Shown one piece after another: positions 51,175 to 59,174 of a stretch of 64,000 nucleotides of DNA. The notes below the pieces were generated by a model that was given only the letters and a program-made list of their open reading frames with translations, did no database searches and had not been told where the DNA came from. The position numbers and the translations under genes were made by a program. The DNA comes from Rhizomicrobium sp. Its GTDB lineage: Bacteria; Pseudomonadota; Alphaproteobacteria; Micropepsales; Micropepsaceae. Every line of letters starts with the position of its first letter. The stretch's first letter is position 1. Location: NCBI GenBank assembly GCA_037200985.1, contig JBBCGJ010000001.1:620001-684000 (forward strand), in the 5' to 3' direction.

Positions 51175-51283
51175 TTGCGCATTCTTTGCGCAGGTTATAG
51201 TTGCGCTTACAAACTTTCGTTGCGCATATGCCTTGATAGTTGCGCATAAAAATGGTTTAGTTGCGCATAGATTCTACGCGCAA
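51175..51283. repeat. Six direct repeats of TTGCGC(A/T), candidate operator array
   Basis: TTGCGC(A/T) occurs at 51175, 51186, 51201, 51220, 51240 and 51261 on the plus strand, and its reverse complement core GCGCAA is at 51278. The last four copies are 19, 20 and 21 bases apart, about two helical turns, and three of these four are preceded by AG. The array fills the promoter of the Fic/GajA-like/GajB-like operon and ends at its start codon. Confidence 0.75.
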
Positions 51284-51293
51284 CGAGGGCTGA

Positions 51294-52679
51294 GTGGCAA
51301 AACGAATCCCGGACGAAGATCTGCTGGCGATCGAGTCGGTCCTGCGGCGCCATCCGGGCGGTGCGTCAGCCCAGCAAATCCAGGCCGAACTCAGCCCTCA
51401 AACGCCCCAGCGAACCCTGCAATACCGGCTCCGGTATCTGACCACTCATGGCCGCGTAGTGCGGGACGGCGACGGCCGCTGGGCCAAATATCACCTGCCG
51501 GTAGCCGCGCCGAACGCCGCTGATCCGACGGACCGAGACGATGCGATCATAACGGTCTCGGAGGCCGGCAGGGATATACGGGACTATATGCGCCCGCCGC
51601 CGGAGGCACGCAAACCAGCCGGCTACAATCGCCACTTTCTCGATGCCTATCGCCCGAACGTCACCGCCTATCTGTCGGCGGCAGAACGCGCGCATCTGGC
51701 ACAGGTGGGAGGCGCGGATGTCCGTGAGCAACCAGCCGGCACCTACGCCAAACATATTCTGAATCGGCTTCTGATCGATCTGGCGTGGAATTCGAGCCGG
51801 CTCGAAGGCAACACCTATTCGCTGCTCGATACCAAACGCCTCATCGAACTGGGAGAGGAAGCACAGGGGCGCGAGCATCTCGAAGCCCAGATGATCCTGA
51901 ACCACAAGGATGCGATCGAATTCCTGGTCGGCAGCGCCGAGGAGATCGGCTTCAATCGCTATACGATGCTCAATCTCCATGCGCTGCTGGCGAATAATCT
52001 GCTGGCGGACCCAGCAGCGGCGGGCAGGCTTCGGCACATCGCGGTCGGCATCGAACGATCCGCATTCCATCCGCTCGAGGTGCCGCAGCTGATCGCCGAA
52101 TGTTTCGATCAGATTCTCGCCACGGCGGCCGCGATCAAAGATCCGTTCGAGCAGGCGTTCTTCGTCATGGTGCAGCTTCCCTATCTTCAACCCTTCGACG
52201 ACGTGAACAAACGCGTGTCGCGCCTCGCGGCCAATATTCCGCTGATCAAAGGCAACCTCTCACCGCTGTCTTTTGTCGACGTTCCCCGGGCGACCTACAC
52301 CGAGGCGGTGCTCGGCGTGTACGAGTTGAACAAGGTCGATCTTCTGAAAGATGTGTTCGTATGGGCCTATGAGCGCTCGGCAGCGCGCTACGCCGCGGTC
52401 CGCCAATCGCTGGGGGAACCTGATCCCTTTCTGCTGCGTCATCGCACTCATTTGCGCGAAGTCATCGGCGAGATCATCCGCAGCCGCATGAACAGAAAAG
52501 ATGCTGTCGCCCATATCGCTGCCTGGTCCAGGAACAAGATCGCTCCCGCGGACCGGTCGCGCTTCACCGAGGCGGCGGAGAGGGAATTGACGAGCCTGCA
52601 CGAGGGAAATTTTGCGCGGTATCAGATTCGGCCGTCCGAGTTCGCCGCATGGCAGGAGATTTGGGGAGGAGCGCGATGA
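51294..52679 (+). CDS. Fic family protein with N-terminal winged helix
   Basis: A 461-aa protein. Residues about 1-65 look like a winged helix (LLAIESVLRRHPGGASAQQI, LQYRLRYLTTHGRVVRDG). An inhibitory-type helix SSRLEGN (Glu171) precedes the Fic core, whose motif is LQPFDDVNKRVSR (Gln299): the catalytic His of HPFx(D/E)GN(G/K)R is Gln. I recall the PFDDVNKR form as a known Fic subgroup, so AMP transfer is doubtful and a regulatory role is possible. GTG 51294 follows the repeat array. ATGA overlap with the next gene indicates an operon with the Gabija-like pair. Confidence 0.85.
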   Translation: MAKRIPDEDLLAIESVLRRHPGGASAQQIQAELSPQTPQRTLQYRLRYLTTHGRVVRDGDGRWAKYHLPVAAPNAADPTDRDDAIITVSEAGRDIRDYMRPPPEARKPAGYNRHFLDAYRPNVTAYLSAAERAHLAQVGGADVREQPAGTYAKHILNRLLIDLAWNSSRLEGNTYSLLDTKRLIELGEEAQGREHLEAQMILNHKDAIEFLVGSAEEIGFNRYTMLNLHALLANNLLADPAAAGRLRHIAVGIERSAFHPLEVPQLIAECFDQILATAAAIKDPFEQAFFVMVQLPYLQPFDDVNKRVSRLAANIPLIKGNLSPLSFVDVPRATYTEAVLGVYELNKVDLLKDVFVWAYERSAARYAAVRQSLGEPDPFLLRHRTHLREVIGEIIRSRMNRKDAVAHIAAWSRNKIAPADRSRFTEAAERELTSLHEGNFARYQIRPSEFAAWQEIWGGAR

Positions 52680-54439
52680 GCGCACCTGGATCACCAGCTT
52701 CGGCGCCTGCGATCTATCGCTTCTCGATCGAGCGCTTTCGAGGAATCAAATCGCTCGTCTGGCAGCCGGCAAAGGGTGTCAACGTCATTCTTGGCGGCGG
52801 CGACGTTGGCAAGACGACCATCCTGGACGCAATCGGCCTGCTGCTCAGCCCCGTCAACCCGGCTAATCTTGCCGATACCGACTATCACGCGCGCGACATC
52901 GCGGCGGGCTTTTTGATCGAGGCGGTCATCTCTCTGCCGCCAGGCAGCGGCATCAGCGATCAGTTCAAGCCGTCTTGGCCGTGGGAGTGGAATGGTACGG
53001 ACGTCTCGGTTCCGAGCACCGACGACGACGGCAACCCTCCCGGCGATCCGGTATATCGCGTGCGCGTGCGGGGCACCGAGGATCTGGAGCTCATTTACGA
53101 GATCGTGCAACCCGATGGCTCGACCGACGGCTTCCCGGTTGGGTTGCGCCGTTCGATCGGGCTGGTGCGACTGAGTGGCGATGACCGAAACGACCGTGAC
53201 TTGCGGCTCGTGCAAGGCTCGGCACTCGACCGGCTGCTCTCCGACAAAGGCCTGCGTTCGCGCATGGCGAGCGAGTTGGCTAAAAGCGATGTGAAGAGTG
53301 AACTGACGGATGGCGCGAAGAAGGCGCTCGAAGATCTCGACGCGGCCTTCAAGGCCAAGAGCCTACCGGCCGGACTCGATCTCGCCATCACTGGCGGGCA
53401 GGGTCCCTCCATTGCATCGTTAGTCGGCCTGACAGCAGACCGCGACGGCACGCCTCTGCCGCTCGCAAGCTGGGGCGCAGGAACGCGTCGGCTCTCCGCT
53501 CTCGCGATTGCCGAACAGAACCAGGGCGAGGCACCGATCACGATCGTTGACGAAGTCGAACGTGGGCTCGAGCCTTATCGCCAGCGAACGCTCATGGACA
53601 AGCTGCAGGCCGCCAAGTCGCAGGTATTCGTCACAACGCACAGCCCGGCAGCAATCTCAGCCGTGTCCGAGGCGGGCGTTTGGTATGTCGATCCTGCAGG
53701 TAGGATCGGGGCGCTCGATGCCCTCAAGATTGCGCGACATCGCAAAGTCGATCCCGAGACGTTTCTGGCGCGTTTTGCGGTTGTCGCCGAAGGCGCGACG
53801 GAAGCCGGCCTGACCGCATCTTTGCTGGAGCGGGCGCTGGGCGCGGCGCTGGAACAACACGGCGTGCATGTCACGGATGGCGGCGGGCACGAAAACACGT
53901 TGGGCCTGCTCGAAGCGCTGGCCGCGGGCGGGCTTCGCTTTGGTGGGTTCGTCGACGACGAAGCCAAGCATCCGGAGCGCTGGGCGAAGCTCGCCGCGAA
54001 GCTCGACAAGCTGCTCTTCCGTTGGCCTTCGCTTTGCACCGAAAACAATGTGATCGCGACCATACCGGACGACAAATTGGAAGCACTGATCATCGATCCG
54101 AAGAACGAGAAGACCGGCATGCGTTGCCGGACACTGTCCGAGCGTCTGGGCATCGCGGACAAGGATTTCGCGGCGCTCAAGGCAAAAGCGGGAGACGGCT
54201 TCCGGGCGCTCATCATCGAGGCCGCACGGGGCTCGGTGCCGCCCGGCAAGGAAAGCGAGAATAAACAGTACAAGGCGCATGCCGGGACATGGTTCAAATC
54301 GATGGAGGGTGGGCGCGAACTCGCAGGCAAAATTTTCAGCCTCGGCGCCTGGCCGGTCTTGAAGCCGCAACTGCTGCCGTTCTGCAACGCAGTCCGGAAG
54401 GCGATCGACCTGCCGGACGTCGCGGACTTGCCGCCTTGA
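52676..54439 (+). CDS. GajA-like OLD family ATPase with TOPRIM nuclease domain
   Basis: A 587-aa protein. The N-terminal ATPase has Walker A GGGDVGKTT (40-48), signature SWGAGTRRL and Walker B TIVDEVERGLEP (Asp292/Glu293), then FVTTHSPAA. The C-terminal TOPRIM has Glu372 in VVAEGATEAG and the acidic pair Asp427/Asp428 in FGGFVDDEAKH. Size and layout match GajA of Gabija, a nucleotide-sensing DNA nickase active against phage. ATG 52676 overlaps the Fic stop; its own stop overlaps the helicase start. Confidence 0.88.
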   Translation: MSAPGSPASAPAIYRFSIERFRGIKSLVWQPAKGVNVILGGGDVGKTTILDAIGLLLSPVNPANLADTDYHARDIAAGFLIEAVISLPPGSGISDQFKPSWPWEWNGTDVSVPSTDDDGNPPGDPVYRVRVRGTEDLELIYEIVQPDGSTDGFPVGLRRSIGLVRLSGDDRNDRDLRLVQGSALDRLLSDKGLRSRMASELAKSDVKSELTDGAKKALEDLDAAFKAKSLPAGLDLAITGGQGPSIASLVGLTADRDGTPLPLASWGAGTRRLSALAIAEQNQGEAPITIVDEVERGLEPYRQRTLMDKLQAAKSQVFVTTHSPAAISAVSEAGVWYVDPAGRIGALDALKIARHRKVDPETFLARFAVVAEGATEAGLTASLLERALGAALEQHGVHVTDGGGHENTLGLLEALAAGGLRFGGFVDDEAKHPERWAKLAAKLDKLLFRWPSLCTENNVIATIPDDKLEALIIDPKNEKTGMRCRTLSERLGIADKDFAALKAKAGDGFRALIIEAARGSVPPGKESENKQYKAHAGTWFKSMEGGRELAGKIFSLGAWPVLKPQLLPFCNAVRKAIDLPDVADLPP

Positions 54440-55953
54440 GCGACGAGACCGTCCGCGCAGCGCTGCGATCCGACGTTCCGCTCGTTCTGGTCGAGGCGCC
54501 GGCCGGCTGTGGCAAGACGCACCAGGGCGCTGATTATGCGCACGAGGTTGCACCGTCCGTCCTAGGCCGGCTCCTCATTCTGACCCACACGCATGCCGCC
54601 TGTTCGGTCTTCGCCGAACGAACGCGAATCGGCCAATCGCGCGTCGAGATTCGCACGATCGACAGCCTTATCGCGCAGATTGCGACAGCTTATCATGTCG
54701 GGCTTGGTCTACCCGCCGATGCCACAGCCTGGGCGCGGCGAAATACGGACGGCTATGCGCAGGTTGCTCTGAAAGTGGCGAGTCTATTGGCGCGGCGCCC
54801 AATGATCGCGGCGTCCCTAGCTAAGCGTTATCCGGTCGTGATTTGCGACGAGCATCAAGACTGCAGCGGCGACCAGCACGCCCTGGGCATGGCGCTGCTG
54901 GCACACGGATCGCGGCTTCGCGTGTTCGCCGATCCGATGCAACGCATTTACAAGGAGAAAGCGCTCGCCGGTTCCAGCCCTGGCTGCGACTGGGCTGCCC
55001 TCACAAAGAAAGCGCAGGCCTATGAGCAGCTCGATACACCACACCGCTGGGAGACGGGTTGCCCGGAGCTCGGAAAATGGACCTTGCAGGCGCGCGCCGC
55101 ACTAATGTCCGGCGGAAAAGTTGATCTCCGCAATGGATTGCCGCCGAGCGTCAGCGTGGTATTTGCCGAGAATCAGGCGCAAAGAAATCTGGAATATCAT
55201 CTCGCAACCGCAGATCGGAAGCCGATCGATGCGTTCGAGAAAGCGCAGACCTCGCTCCTTGTGTTGACCCATCACAACGACACGGCGCGCTCGTTTCGCG
55301 GGTTCTTCAACCGGCGCCTTCCCCTTTGGGAAGGTCATACGCGCGCCGCCTTGGAGGGGCTGGTGGACGCTGTCGGTGCTCAGCACGGCGATGCGCCGAT
55401 GCTCGCTGCTGCGGTCGTTACGTTCATGAACGACGTTGGCAAAGGATTCAGTCCGTCTGCCTTTGGCGATCGACTCGAGAAGGAAGTTCGTGACGGCTGC
55501 ACGGCCCGAAGCAGGGGCAAGCCCGCGATCATCCAGGAGCTTGGCCGGTGCCTGCTTGCCGATCCCGATCATCGGGGTGTCGCCAACATGCTTCGCCGCC
55601 TTGCGGAACTGAAACAGTCGAATGGAGACTTCGCGGACATCGAAATGGACTGTCACAAAGAGTTCTGGGATGCGGTCCGGCTGGGCGCGTTCGACAGTAT
55701 CGACGAAGGGCTGACCGAGATCACGCATCGCCGTACCTATTCAAGGCCAAAGCCGCCGGATAAGGCGATCAGTACGATCCACAAGGCCAAGGGACTTGAA
55801 TGCGGCAGCGTCATTATTATGCCTTGCGATGCCAAGACGTTTCCCGAACGGCCGGACGCGCGCTGTCTTCTGTATGTTGCGCTCAGCCGCGCCAAGAGCC
55901 GTCTCTTGCTTGTCGTGTCGCGCAACGCTCCGAGCCCGCTCCTAGCAATTTAG
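54436..55953 (+). CDS. GajB-like UvrD/PcrA family helicase
   Basis: A 505-aa superfamily 1 helicase-like protein starting at TTG 54436 (TTGA overlap with the GajA-like gene). Walker A is EAPAGCGKTHQG (20-31), Walker B VVICDEHQDCSG (near 138), FADPMQRIY is motif III-like, STIHKAKGLECGSVII motif V and LYVALSRAKSRLLLV motif VI. Length matches GajB (about 500 aa), which associates with GajA and is activated by DNA ends. The coupling of all three genes suggests fixed stoichiometry with the Fic protein. Confidence 0.88.
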   Translation: MSDETVRAALRSDVPLVLVEAPAGCGKTHQGADYAHEVAPSVLGRLLILTHTHAACSVFAERTRIGQSRVEIRTIDSLIAQIATAYHVGLGLPADATAWARRNTDGYAQVALKVASLLARRPMIAASLAKRYPVVICDEHQDCSGDQHALGMALLAHGSRLRVFADPMQRIYKEKALAGSSPGCDWAALTKKAQAYEQLDTPHRWETGCPELGKWTLQARAALMSGGKVDLRNGLPPSVSVVFAENQAQRNLEYHLATADRKPIDAFEKAQTSLLVLTHHNDTARSFRGFFNRRLPLWEGHTRAALEGLVDAVGAQHGDAPMLAAAVVTFMNDVGKGFSPSAFGDRLEKEVRDGCTARSRGKPAIIQELGRCLLADPDHRGVANMLRRLAELKQSNGDFADIEMDCHKEFWDAVRLGAFDSIDEGLTEITHRRTYSRPKPPDKAISTIHKAKGLECGSVIIMPCDAKTFPERPDARCLLYVALSRAKSRLLLVVSRNAPSPLLAI

Positions 55954-56330: not shown

Positions 56331-59174
56331 ATGGCGAGACTACTCCTAACCGGAGACGCGCCGCTTGATCGAAATATTTTTTATGACCCTTCGGAAACTG
56401 TTGGGGCGCTCCTTGCAGCCGTTATTGCCTTCTTTCGCGGCGAAGGTACAGCTCATCTTCTGTTGAGCGCCGGGGAAGGATTGAATTCAAGACAAATTCT
56501 CTTGAAGGCTCTTCAGTTGGCGCCTTCATTGCTCGGCTTCGATTTACGCACTTTTTGGGTAAGCGCGGCGCGCGGAGATCGGCAGGACGATGTTTTGAAG
56601 CAAGTCTACCGGCACCTTTCGAAAACGTGGCTCGAATATCTGCCAATCCGAAGCCTCAGCCCGGATATCAATTTTCTTGAAGAAGCGACCGAACCTGGCC
56701 GCCACGTCGATCGCATCCATTCGATCCTATCGCGACTTTCGTCTAGCAATCTCGTATTTGTCGCCGATCTAACTAAGTGGCGCTCGGATCAGGAGACTAC
56801 ACGCGATTATCGCGAAACGCTTGAACGGATCGCATCGCGCACACTCGTTAGAAATTGCTTATTCATAACAATTGTTCACCAGGCACAATCGCGGCAGGCT
56901 AAGGGTAGATCGGGCATTATCGAGATCCCCGAAGTCGAAGCCCGGTTTGAAAAAAGTCTGAACAAACTCCTGAGAGCGCGTCGTCGGGGAAACGGCGAAT
57001 TGAGGAGTCTCCCATCTCAGCGTGTGCAGTACGAACGCATATTGGCGCCATGGTACGCATATGGCCGACCGATCGCAGGATCACGCTCCGAATTTCTTAC
57101 GGAGCAGATACCCGCGACGGCAGATACCATAAAGCTATTGCTCCAAGAAGATCTGATCTATCCCTTGATAGCGGACGGCTATTCTCTGACGGTCGACGGG
57201 CTTCAAGCCGCGTCGCACGATCTTAAAGCGGCGCGCCAACAGGCCAGCCAATTAGCCGACATAGCGCCAAACGTATTGCGAATTATGGACTTCATGCCGC
57301 CCGAAAGGTTATCCGAAGTGCGATCTGATGTTCAGCGACTTCTCAGCAATGACCCAACGCCGTCCACACTGTTGAGGATGATTGCTGCCGTCATGGCGCC
57401 TGAATCTGGTGCCGCGGAATGGCAAAGCCGCCTGCTCGAATACCTGTCGGCGCCAAAAACACTCCGACAGGATTCGGAGCTGGTAAGAAACGGTTCATAC
57501 TCGCGCATCGCCATAAATTATCTCGGCCAGGCTCTTCTGGCGAATGCTCATAAGCTCGACACCGCCCATTTTCACGCATTCGAGACAATTTCTTATCTTT
57601 ATGCCGATTCGATCGTCAACAAGACGGATGTTCACCCGAGCGATATCCTTGAAGCCTCTGGCTGGGTATACAATATTGGGTACGTGTATGACCGGGCGCA
57701 CGCGCTCGAACGCAAGACATCGATTTCCGCTCGGAAAAAGCTGCAAAGCGATGCGGCGGCTCTGTACGCGCTGACCAGAATCTACGATGCACCTCTAGGC
57801 ATGCGGTTGGAGGTTGGTTTTCTAAAAGGTCTGTATCAGTACAACATCGGGGCATTTTCCGAGTCCTCCGATACATTTTTGCTTGCGTTGCGCGAGTCGC
57901 TCGAAAACGGTTCCACAACGATAGATTCTGCAGACGATTTCGATTTATCGGCAGGGGAATTAGCGCCTTCGCTGTTTACCAACGCACTGCGATCCGCTGA
58001 ATCATGCCCGCCCGCAAAACGCGCGCAAATCTTCTTGTATCTGCGCCAACTTGACAGGCATTTCGTCCATCGCTTCGGATTTTCGATATTCAACGATGTT
58101 GTTAACTCTACGGACAATGGCGGAAAAGCCTCCTTCCGTTCCGAGCTATGGAATTTCTCGGCCAGCAGCAAACCGGACCTGGGAATCGTAAGTCACACGG
58201 CAGCGTCTGGGGACACCGCCTATTTGGGTTCTTTGATATTTCGCGAACTTAATCTCTCGGTTCGCTGCTTCTCGCCGGATTCGTTGGATGCGTTACGAAA
58301 AGTAGATAGCGATGCGCGGTATCCGTTATTGGTTTCGGGAGGTCCGGAATCTCGCTTCGGATTGGGGGATTTTATCACTGAAATGGATCCTTCAATTAAA
58401 TCTCTTTTCCAATTTATCAGCAGCGGTCCCGTCGGAATTCCAATTGAAATAGCGACGAGAAGGCCCTCTCGCACTGTATTAGCAACTTGGTCGCTCGGCG
58501 ACAGTGTTCGCGCAACTCGCCGTTGGATTCGCAACGCAAAGGAGACACGCATGTTAGATGGCACGATCGTTCAGCAACTGCTCGACAATCCGATTGTTAG
58601 TTCAATAACGTCAAAGGTGGGCGTCAAGATCATCGACCGCTTGGTCGACGCGGCAGTTTCAGCGATCTCGAAGCGCATGACCAAAATTGGTGCGGATGTC
58701 GAGAACGACATGGCCGCGTTGAAGGCACGTATCGAGCCCGTTTTTACTGCCAAGCGAAATCAGTCGATGTCTGGCGCTTCCCCTCAGCGTGTAGCCGAAG
58801 AGGCGCTGTCGAAAGTCAGCACATTGGAGCAGCGCGCGTTGCTAGAAACCTTGAGCGGAACGCAATGGATCGTCGTTCTCGAAGACGCCCTTGACCAGCT
58901 GAGAGCTTCGAGCGTTTCTTTGGCCGAACTTCAGTCGATTCTCGAACTTCTACTCGGCGTCGCCACAAGTGCCATGGTCGAAGGATTTCGCGATGAGCGA
59001 CGCCGACAAAAGTTGATCGGCTTTCAATCGGCGTTTCGAGAGTTCATCTTCGAAACGGACAATATGTCCATTCGCGAACAGGCACGATCTGTCCGTAACA
59101 ACGAATTGGTTTCCGATCTAATGACCCGTGTCTTCACGAGCTCAACGGCATTTTTGAGTTTTCTTCGCGAGTAG
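56331..59174 (+). CDS. Uncharacterised 947-aa protein with degenerate NTPase-like N terminus
   Basis: I do not recognise the family. Residues about 20-260 have the strand-helix rhythm of a P-loop NTPase (HLLLSAGEGLNSRQILLKAL, SSNLVFVADLTKW, RNCLFITIVHQA), but no Walker lysine is visible. Residues about 360-660 are helical and repeat-like. A further alpha/beta region includes ARYPLLVSGGPESRFGLGDF, then a helical C terminus. ATG 56331 is fixed by the shared start-site motif. The gene has lower GC than the transfer region and overlaps the convergent glycosyltransferase gene by 41 bases. A STAND-like sensor is one possibility. Confidence 0.7.
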   Translation: MARLLLTGDAPLDRNIFYDPSETVGALLAAVIAFFRGEGTAHLLLSAGEGLNSRQILLKALQLAPSLLGFDLRTFWVSAARGDRQDDVLKQVYRHLSKTWLEYLPIRSLSPDINFLEEATEPGRHVDRIHSILSRLSSSNLVFVADLTKWRSDQETTRDYRETLERIASRTLVRNCLFITIVHQAQSRQAKGRSGIIEIPEVEARFEKSLNKLLRARRRGNGELRSLPSQRVQYERILAPWYAYGRPIAGSRSEFLTEQIPATADTIKLLLQEDLIYPLIADGYSLTVDGLQAASHDLKAARQQASQLADIAPNVLRIMDFMPPERLSEVRSDVQRLLSNDPTPSTLLRMIAAVMAPESGAAEWQSRLLEYLSAPKTLRQDSELVRNGSYSRIAINYLGQALLANAHKLDTAHFHAFETISYLYADSIVNKTDVHPSDILEASGWVYNIGYVYDRAHALERKTSISARKKLQSDAAALYALTRIYDAPLGMRLEVGFLKGLYQYNIGAFSESSDTFLLALRESLENGSTTIDSADDFDLSAGELAPSLFTNALRSAESCPPAKRAQIFLYLRQLDRHFVHRFGFSIFNDVVNSTDNGGKASFRSELWNFSASSKPDLGIVSHTAASGDTAYLGSLIFRELNLSVRCFSPDSLDALRKVDSDARYPLLVSGGPESRFGLGDFITEMDPSIKSLFQFISSGPVGIPIEIATRRPSRTVLATWSLGDSVRATRRWIRNAKETRMLDGTIVQQLLDNPIVSSITSKVGVKIIDRLVDAAVSAISKRMTKIGADVENDMAALKARIEPVFTAKRNQSMSGASPQRVAEEALSKVSTLEQRALLETLSGTQWIVVLEDALDQLRASSVSLAELQSILELLLGVATSAMVEGFRDERRRQKLIGFQSAFREFIFETDNMSIREQARSVRNNELVSDLMTRVFTSSTAFLSFLRE

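Follow-up and report, generated by a model that had tools for sequence, protein, structure and literature searches.

A divergent Gabija pair headed by a catalytically altered Fic protein downstream of a conserved operator array

Three overlapping genes of the window, a 64,000-nucleotide stretch that is part of a 4.64-Mb single-contig Rhizomicrobium genome, are, as read from their sequences, a divergent Gabija pair headed by a catalytically altered Fic protein. The Fic protein probably binds DNA and regulates its own promoter, most likely as a repressor, with its gene heading the pair in one transcription and translation unit. The operator array at its promoter is, by comparison of sequences, conserved and near-exclusive to fic promoters. 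The genes are arranged as follows, with 4 bp shared at each junction.

51294-52679, plus strand: fic; GTG start, TGA stop; predicted N-terminal winged helix (residues 1-70) and class II Fic fold with Gln299.
52676-54439, plus strand: gajA-like; ATG start (ATGA junction), TGA stop; ABC ATPase and TOPRIM.
54436-55953, plus strand: gajB-like; TTG start (TTGA junction), TAG stop; UvrD-type SF1 helicase.

A sequence-only reading had described this trio as a Gabija-like pair led by a coupled, winged-helix Fic protein with Gln in place of the catalytic His. The description is borne out by Pfam, PADLOC, motifs, AlphaFold with Foldseek and the overlaps; the winged helix is seen in the AlphaFold model and the Gln in the sequence.

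The GajA-like protein matches Pfam AAA_21 (1.6e-19) and, just below the cut-off, an OLD-like TOPRIM domain (1.3e-4). Its motifs are GGGDVGKT (Walker A), VDEVERGLEP (DE) and TTHSP (H-loop); TOPRIM residues E372 and D427 are invariant. The GajB-like protein carries the Pfam UvrD N and C domains. The best PADLOC models, PDLC04168 for GajA (1.5e-71) and PDLC04173 for GajB (1e-57), are matched over nearly the full length. In Foldseek, the AlphaFold model of GajA retrieves OLD nuclease 6p74 first (3.7e-17) and solved GajA 8u7i second (1.9e-16). Identity to solved GajA is 11-14%, and a sequence search of the PDB matches GajB only at E 3e-4. The pair has the features of Gabija: two genes, an ATPase-TOPRIM protein with intact motifs, a UvrD-like SF1 helicase directly 3', Gabija models as the best PADLOC matches, similarity to characterised Gabija proteins and a fold that matches solved GajA. 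It differs in being headed by a translationally coupled Fic under an operator array and in its remote sequences. The gajAB unit presumably functions in anti-phage defence.

In Pfam, the fic product matches the Fic domain (4e-9) and nothing else. The winged helix is unreported there and a WYL domain is absent; any likeness to BrxR/CapW is one of role, not of membership. The AlphaFold model (pLDDT 90.9) has helices at residues 7-18, 26-32 and 39-51 and strands at 56-58 and 65-67, the latter two forming the wing. Residues 1-70 are thus predicted to form an N-terminal winged helix, the HTH element of a DNA-binding Fic. The nearest structures in Foldseek are FICD/Fic-1 (4.7e-9); PADLOC gives weak matches to PDC-S04 (1.4e-15) and SoFic (1.1e-9). 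No small antitoxin gene lies beside fic: DUF736 and excisionase-like HTH_17 genes are upstream, gajA is downstream, and no antitoxin model was matched. Two motifs mark the Fic fold.

51795-51812, plus strand: inhibitory-helix motif S168-R-L-E-G-N173 of class II Fic (78 homologues compared).
52188-52226, plus strand: Fic motif Q299PFDDVNKRVSRL, Gln for His (motif alignment of homologues).

S168, E171, G172 and N173 are invariant and R169 and L170 at least 90% conserved among the 78 homologues. S167 with S168RLEGN173 gives SxxxEG, which conforms to the class II pattern (S/T)xxxE(G/N), N-terminal to the Fic motif at 299. The catalytic His of HxFx(D/E)GN(G/K)RxxR, as found in active AMP transferases, is Gln299 in the present motif (Q299-PFDDVNKRVSR). 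AMPylation has presumably been lost in this Fic, on the basis of one residue. N305, R307 and R310 are strictly conserved, as is the inhibitory helix, which suggests a selected nucleotide pocket and would suit an enzyme, an AMP or other nucleotide transferase acting through Gln299 on GajA, on GajB or on a phage protein. Such an enzyme is improbable: the catalytic base is Gln in 90 of 90 homologues, the H192A exchange abolishes activity in CccR (PMC9755527), and the conserved pocket could equally serve ligand sensing. For an autoregulator, the Fic fold with His changed to Gln and the class II inhibitory motif kept would be an oligomerisation and ligand-sensing domain, not an AMP transferase, and its conserved nucleotide pocket, lacking the His, could plausibly sense a ligand.

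Copies of TTGCGCNTA lie 5' of fic at 51201, 51220, 51240 and 51261, at a spacing of 19-21 bp. The promoter region is composed as follows.

51175-51209, plus strand: outer operator-like copies TTGCGCATT (51175-51183), TTGCGCAGG (51186-51194) and TTGCGCTTA (51201-51209), from the sequence.
51220-51228, plus strand: operator copy TTGCGCATA, 19 bp from the preceding copy.
51233-51238, plus strand: -35-like TTGATA, its position relative to the operator conserved in 51 homologous loci.
51240-51248, plus strand: operator copy TTGCGCATA within the 17-bp promoter spacer, from promoter comparison.
51256-51261, plus strand: -10-like TTTAGT, from promoter comparison.
51261-51269, plus strand: operator copy TTGCGCATA overlapping the -10 end, from promoter comparison.
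51275-51283, minus strand: inverted operator copy, TACGCGCAA on the plus strand, just 5' of the start codon, from the sequence.

The first two outer copies (51175, 51186) are less regular than the four from 51201. An inverted copy near the start codon is common among fic homologues too. The 200 bp 5' of fic hold eight copies of a TTGCGCG-like 7-mer on either strand, a number reached in 0 of 60 shuffles. At least two TTGCG[CT] within 160 bp upstream are present at 92.6% of 81 Fic loci, against 0.65% of 3,699 control pieces. Upstream of fic homologues, neighbouring copies are 19, 20 or 21 bp apart in 149 of about 180 pairs, and at 51 loci an operator lies inside the spacer of a promoter composed of -35 TTGATA, 17 bp and a -10 element. 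In-register pairs number 186 at fic promoters and 2 elsewhere in 1.34 Mb. The whole 4.64-Mb genome holds no second array; a distributed regulon is rejected, the pattern occurring only at this fic in the genome and almost nowhere else in the neighbourhoods. None of seven Fic-less GajA genes has the array 5' of it. Phage decoy arrays were sought by a pattern scan of IMG/VR and rejected: at least 120 stretches match, none bears a Fic among the matches listed, and the three-copy stretches among these resemble, by eye, peptide-coding repeats and not promoters.

Iterons are direct repeats at about 20-bp spacing, and the copies here look iteron-like. It is nevertheless extremely improbable that they are replication iterons or partition sites of a mobile element, unrelated to Fic. 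They adjoin fic in many phyla, chromosomes included, and almost nowhere else; the repeat sequence also tracks a residue of the Fic wing, and as a general reading the proposal is contradicted.

51480-51482, plus strand: codon of wing residue Trp63, found to co-vary with the TA flank of the operator (mutual information, tree contrasts).

Trp63 is the best of 461 alignment columns in mutual information with the TA flank (table 64/3/4/20, Fisher 2.4e-13). On the tree, Trp63 is concordant in about 8.7 of 14 independent operator contrasts and opposite in 0. In the strict phylogenetic test, on well-supported branches only, 3 contrasts remain, so the co-variation is strong and not proof. In L016 the operator core is TGGCGC and the predicted recognition helix RTLQRHL instead of RTLQYRL; in L053 TTGCGC is absent and the predicted helix is GTLRYRL. 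The Fic protein itself probably reads the array. Operators of the L045/L049 type are TTGCGCGAT, and distant homologues have arrays of different sequence and similar spacing: L123 (TGTCCTTAT), L124 (TTGTCCATTAA), L127 (TGGCCGTAT) and L147 (TGTCGTAA). In a shuffle test, repeats are clearly above shuffles for L123, L124, L127 and L120 and are not separated from them for L106, L108, L109 and L119. The arrays of the distant homologues suggest an operator code that may be mappable family-wide.

The N-terminal winged helix would bind the iterated operators over the fic promoter. With one operator between the -35 and -10 elements and others flanking them, a row of bound Fic on one helix face would block RNA polymerase; direct repeats two helical turns apart would fit a head-to-tail Fic assembly on one face of the DNA. 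Since fic, gajA and gajB overlap and share a promoter, repression would hold gajAB down and keep a potentially toxic nuclease-helicase low until an infection-related signal lifts it. The operator sites straddle the fic promoter, so Fic would also set the level of any other cotranscribed cassette. The upstream copies of the array would equally suit an activator, which counts against a repressor; we infer repression rather than activation, as we do the inducing signal and the sensor role. Repression of its own promoter by a Fic protein has a direct precedent in CccR of Yersinia pseudotuberculosis, a class II Fic with an HTH (PMC9755527). In CccR the HTH is C-terminal, His192 is active and AMPylates FtsZ, the protein is exported by the T6SS, and there is a single palindrome (10 bp, N26, 10 bp) (PMC9755527). 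The present Fic has its winged helix at the N-terminus and Gln in place of His; its promoter carries several direct repeats spaced 19-21 bp, and a defence cassette follows it. DNA binding by a Fic winged helix is precedented by CbFic2 (PMC10628234). Three roles had been offered for the Fic protein by the sequence-only reading: the operator array and the wing co-variation favour a regulator; nothing was found in favour of self-protection or of a sensor of anti-defence.

In GTDB, 386 stretches encode Fic relatives, the best 80 of which were read in detail; many of these loci are from binned metagenomes, and some are truncated at a contig end. GajAB directly follows Fic in 5 of the best 80. A fixed two-way Fic-Gabija partnership is ruled out by this count and by sister GajA genes without Fic. 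The earlier notion of a fixed Gabija partner holds inside one GajA clade (support 94), which comprises the six Fic-linked GajA, and fails outside it: the seven nearest sister GajA genes (plasmids and one genome) and eight more remote GajA loci, retrieved with flanks of 1.5 kb, are without Fic. The same Fic-GajA-GajB order is found in five other genomes, one of them Verrucomicrobiota, hence in six genomes of two phyla; the hosts include Bradyrhizobium, Reyranella, an acetobacterium and a verrucomicrobium. A 4-bp overlap is kept at both junctions in 6 of 6, and pairwise identities of 72-98% are nearly equal for Fic, GajA and GajB. Overlaps kept and identities matched across such unlike hosts indicate a stable three-gene unit that travels together. 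This GajA was found in 0 of the other 60 related genomes searched, and a close-relative scan gave no GajA relatives in viral contigs.

Fic is often found without GajAB (plasmids, genomes, one phage contig), which together with the seven Fic-less sister GajA genes would be expected if Fic were an unrelated passenger of a mobile element placed before gajAB by chance. Chance placement is highly improbable, given the order, overlaps and matched identities in the six genomes, the shared unit and promoter architecture, and same-clade Fic proteins at the head of different defence genes, some of them overlapping in the same way. Rare linkage to GajAB in a neighbourhood survey had been named in advance as a result that would speak against a Fic-Gabija connection; family-wide, rare linkage is what was found, and the idea of a regulator stands because the same Fic family heads other defence cassettes.

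Fic proteins linked to GajAB or to SIR2-APAZ/short pAgo all fall within one well-supported clade of 37, in which the genes after Fic are GajA, SIR2-APAZ with short pAgo, an nSTAND3 ATPase or JetC-JetD; several of these cassettes keep the same overlapping start after Fic. SIR2-APAZ and short pAgo follow Fic in L068 and L101, and in L072, where the cassette runs off the contig; they are interrupted or cut in L055, L010, L070 and L075. An nSTAND3 ATPase follows in L035 and L076. In L042 (8289-15340) the order is JetB-Fic-JetC-JetD, a Wadjet operon in which Fic, with its own array, separates jetB from jetC. Divergent from Fic are PD-T7-1 with an Hjc-like protein and, elsewhere, an exonuclease-ATPase pair. 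Outside the clade of 37, Fic mostly stands as an orphan; in L021, AbiEi-AbiEii lies 143 bp downstream of it. A point against a cassette regulator is that most Fic relatives are not accompanied by a defence gene in the same direction, so that an orphan Fic appears to control itself alone. Long open frames (1717 aa, G717) had hinted at fusions of Fic to an effector; these are ruled out, as the frames continue open on the upstream side alone and the end of Fic is normal.

The Fic protein may alternatively resemble an antitoxin that binds GajA or GajB post-translationally and holds them off until infection, autoregulation being usual for such antitoxins. Tight translational coupling and the matched identities of the three proteins agree with this. 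In L010, L055, L070, L075 and L076, moreover, Fic is intact while the neighbouring effector genes are disrupted or lost, which would be expected of a partner that does harm when uncontrolled. An antitoxin is nonetheless unlikely: the family heads the unrelated proteins GajA, SIR2-APAZ, nSTAND3 and JetC, so one conserved protein-protein inhibition is not to be expected, and most copies are orphans. It is unlikely, as a further extension of the repressor reading, that array-binding repressors form a phylum-crossing family in which the pseudo-Fic senses infection and into which many cassettes (Gabija, SPARSA, nSTAND3, Wadjet, PD-T7-1) have been plugged, and that orphan phage and plasmid copies reading the same operator also silence the cassettes in trans as anti-defence.

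SoFic and PDC-S04, like the present protein, are Fic proteins filed as anti-phage candidates. We take both to be single-gene systems; here Fic heads an operon, its winged helix is at the opposite end from that of SoFic, and Gln replaces His. Regulators that head or adjoin diverse immune operons and control their promoter are known as BrxR/CapW (WYL) and CapK/CapS (PMC9122601, PMC9122588, PMC13373217). Their sensor domains, WYL or STAS and kinase, are unrelated to Fic, and in two of these papers a search for Fic found no mention of it. RptR, encoded by the first gene in a defence island, acts as a repressor at its own promoter through direct repeats that overlap the -10 element (PMC12255303); it differs in being a 9-kDa protein with adjacent 9-bp repeats and no Fic domain. 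No published link of Fic with Gabija, SIR2-APAZ/short pAgo or defence regulators was found in the open-access literature, so an account elsewhere is possible. The best reading is an autorepressor that would hold an exchangeable defence cassette in check, from a new family of defence-leading regulators comparable to BrxR/CapW and CccR. How toxic immune systems like Gabija stay quiet before infection is largely an open question, and the known cis-regulators BrxR/CapW, CapK/CapS and RptR have domains other than Fic. A Fic-fold regulator with a readable operator code, shared by several unrelated defence systems, would offer a testable handle on silencing before infection, and its array a sequence signature for finding more defence cassettes. 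Such a regulator also suggests a role without catalysis for a fold that is mostly described as an AMP transferase.

Immediately upstream of the trio are TrbG/CagX and TrbI homologues, DUF2274, DUF736 and an excisionase-like HTH protein; given these neighbours, the trio is probably cargo of an integrative conjugative element. The Fic nearest by tree path, L013, lies without GajAB beside a DUF2274/TrbI-type module and an integrase, its neighbours having been identified by reading the sequences. Just 3' of gajB, at 56331-59171 on the plus strand, a 947-aa protein is encoded. Searches of Pfam, PADLOC and NCBIfam give it no match, nor does tblastn against plasmids; it is possibly another cargo gene.

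In L068 (6449-13552) and L101 (3449-10552), PD-T7-1 and the Hjc-like gene diverge from the Fic, SIR2-APAZ and short pAgo operon; between these loci, a genome scaffold and a 22-kb plasmid, the four proteins share 92-99% identity. In L076 (1684-5866) a deletion scar of SIR2 (1-50) and pAgo (448-474) lies between intact Fic and the nSTAND3 gene; one cassette was apparently replaced by another. In the Roseibium/Labrenzia loci L100 (2455-5741), L103 (983-5742) and L051 (3984-8743), the operator array separates Fic from a divergent SbcCD-like pair, an exonuclease of the metallophosphatase type and a large AAA ATPase. On a viral contig (L110, 2654-4060), a complete operator array accompanies an orphan Fic, which is encoded between the gene of a CI-like S24 repressor and apparent terminase and portal genes, the latter judged by reading the sequences. 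The closest Fic-less GajA (L092, 4320-11159) stands behind an AbiEi/AbiEii-like pair, its gajB annotated in two pieces and adjoined by an anti-phage dCTP deaminase gene. Proteins of the 'RHE_PE00001 family', possibly another regulator, are encoded 5' of other Fic-less gajAB pairs on rhizobial plasmids (L094, 4563-5723; L096, 3178-4317).
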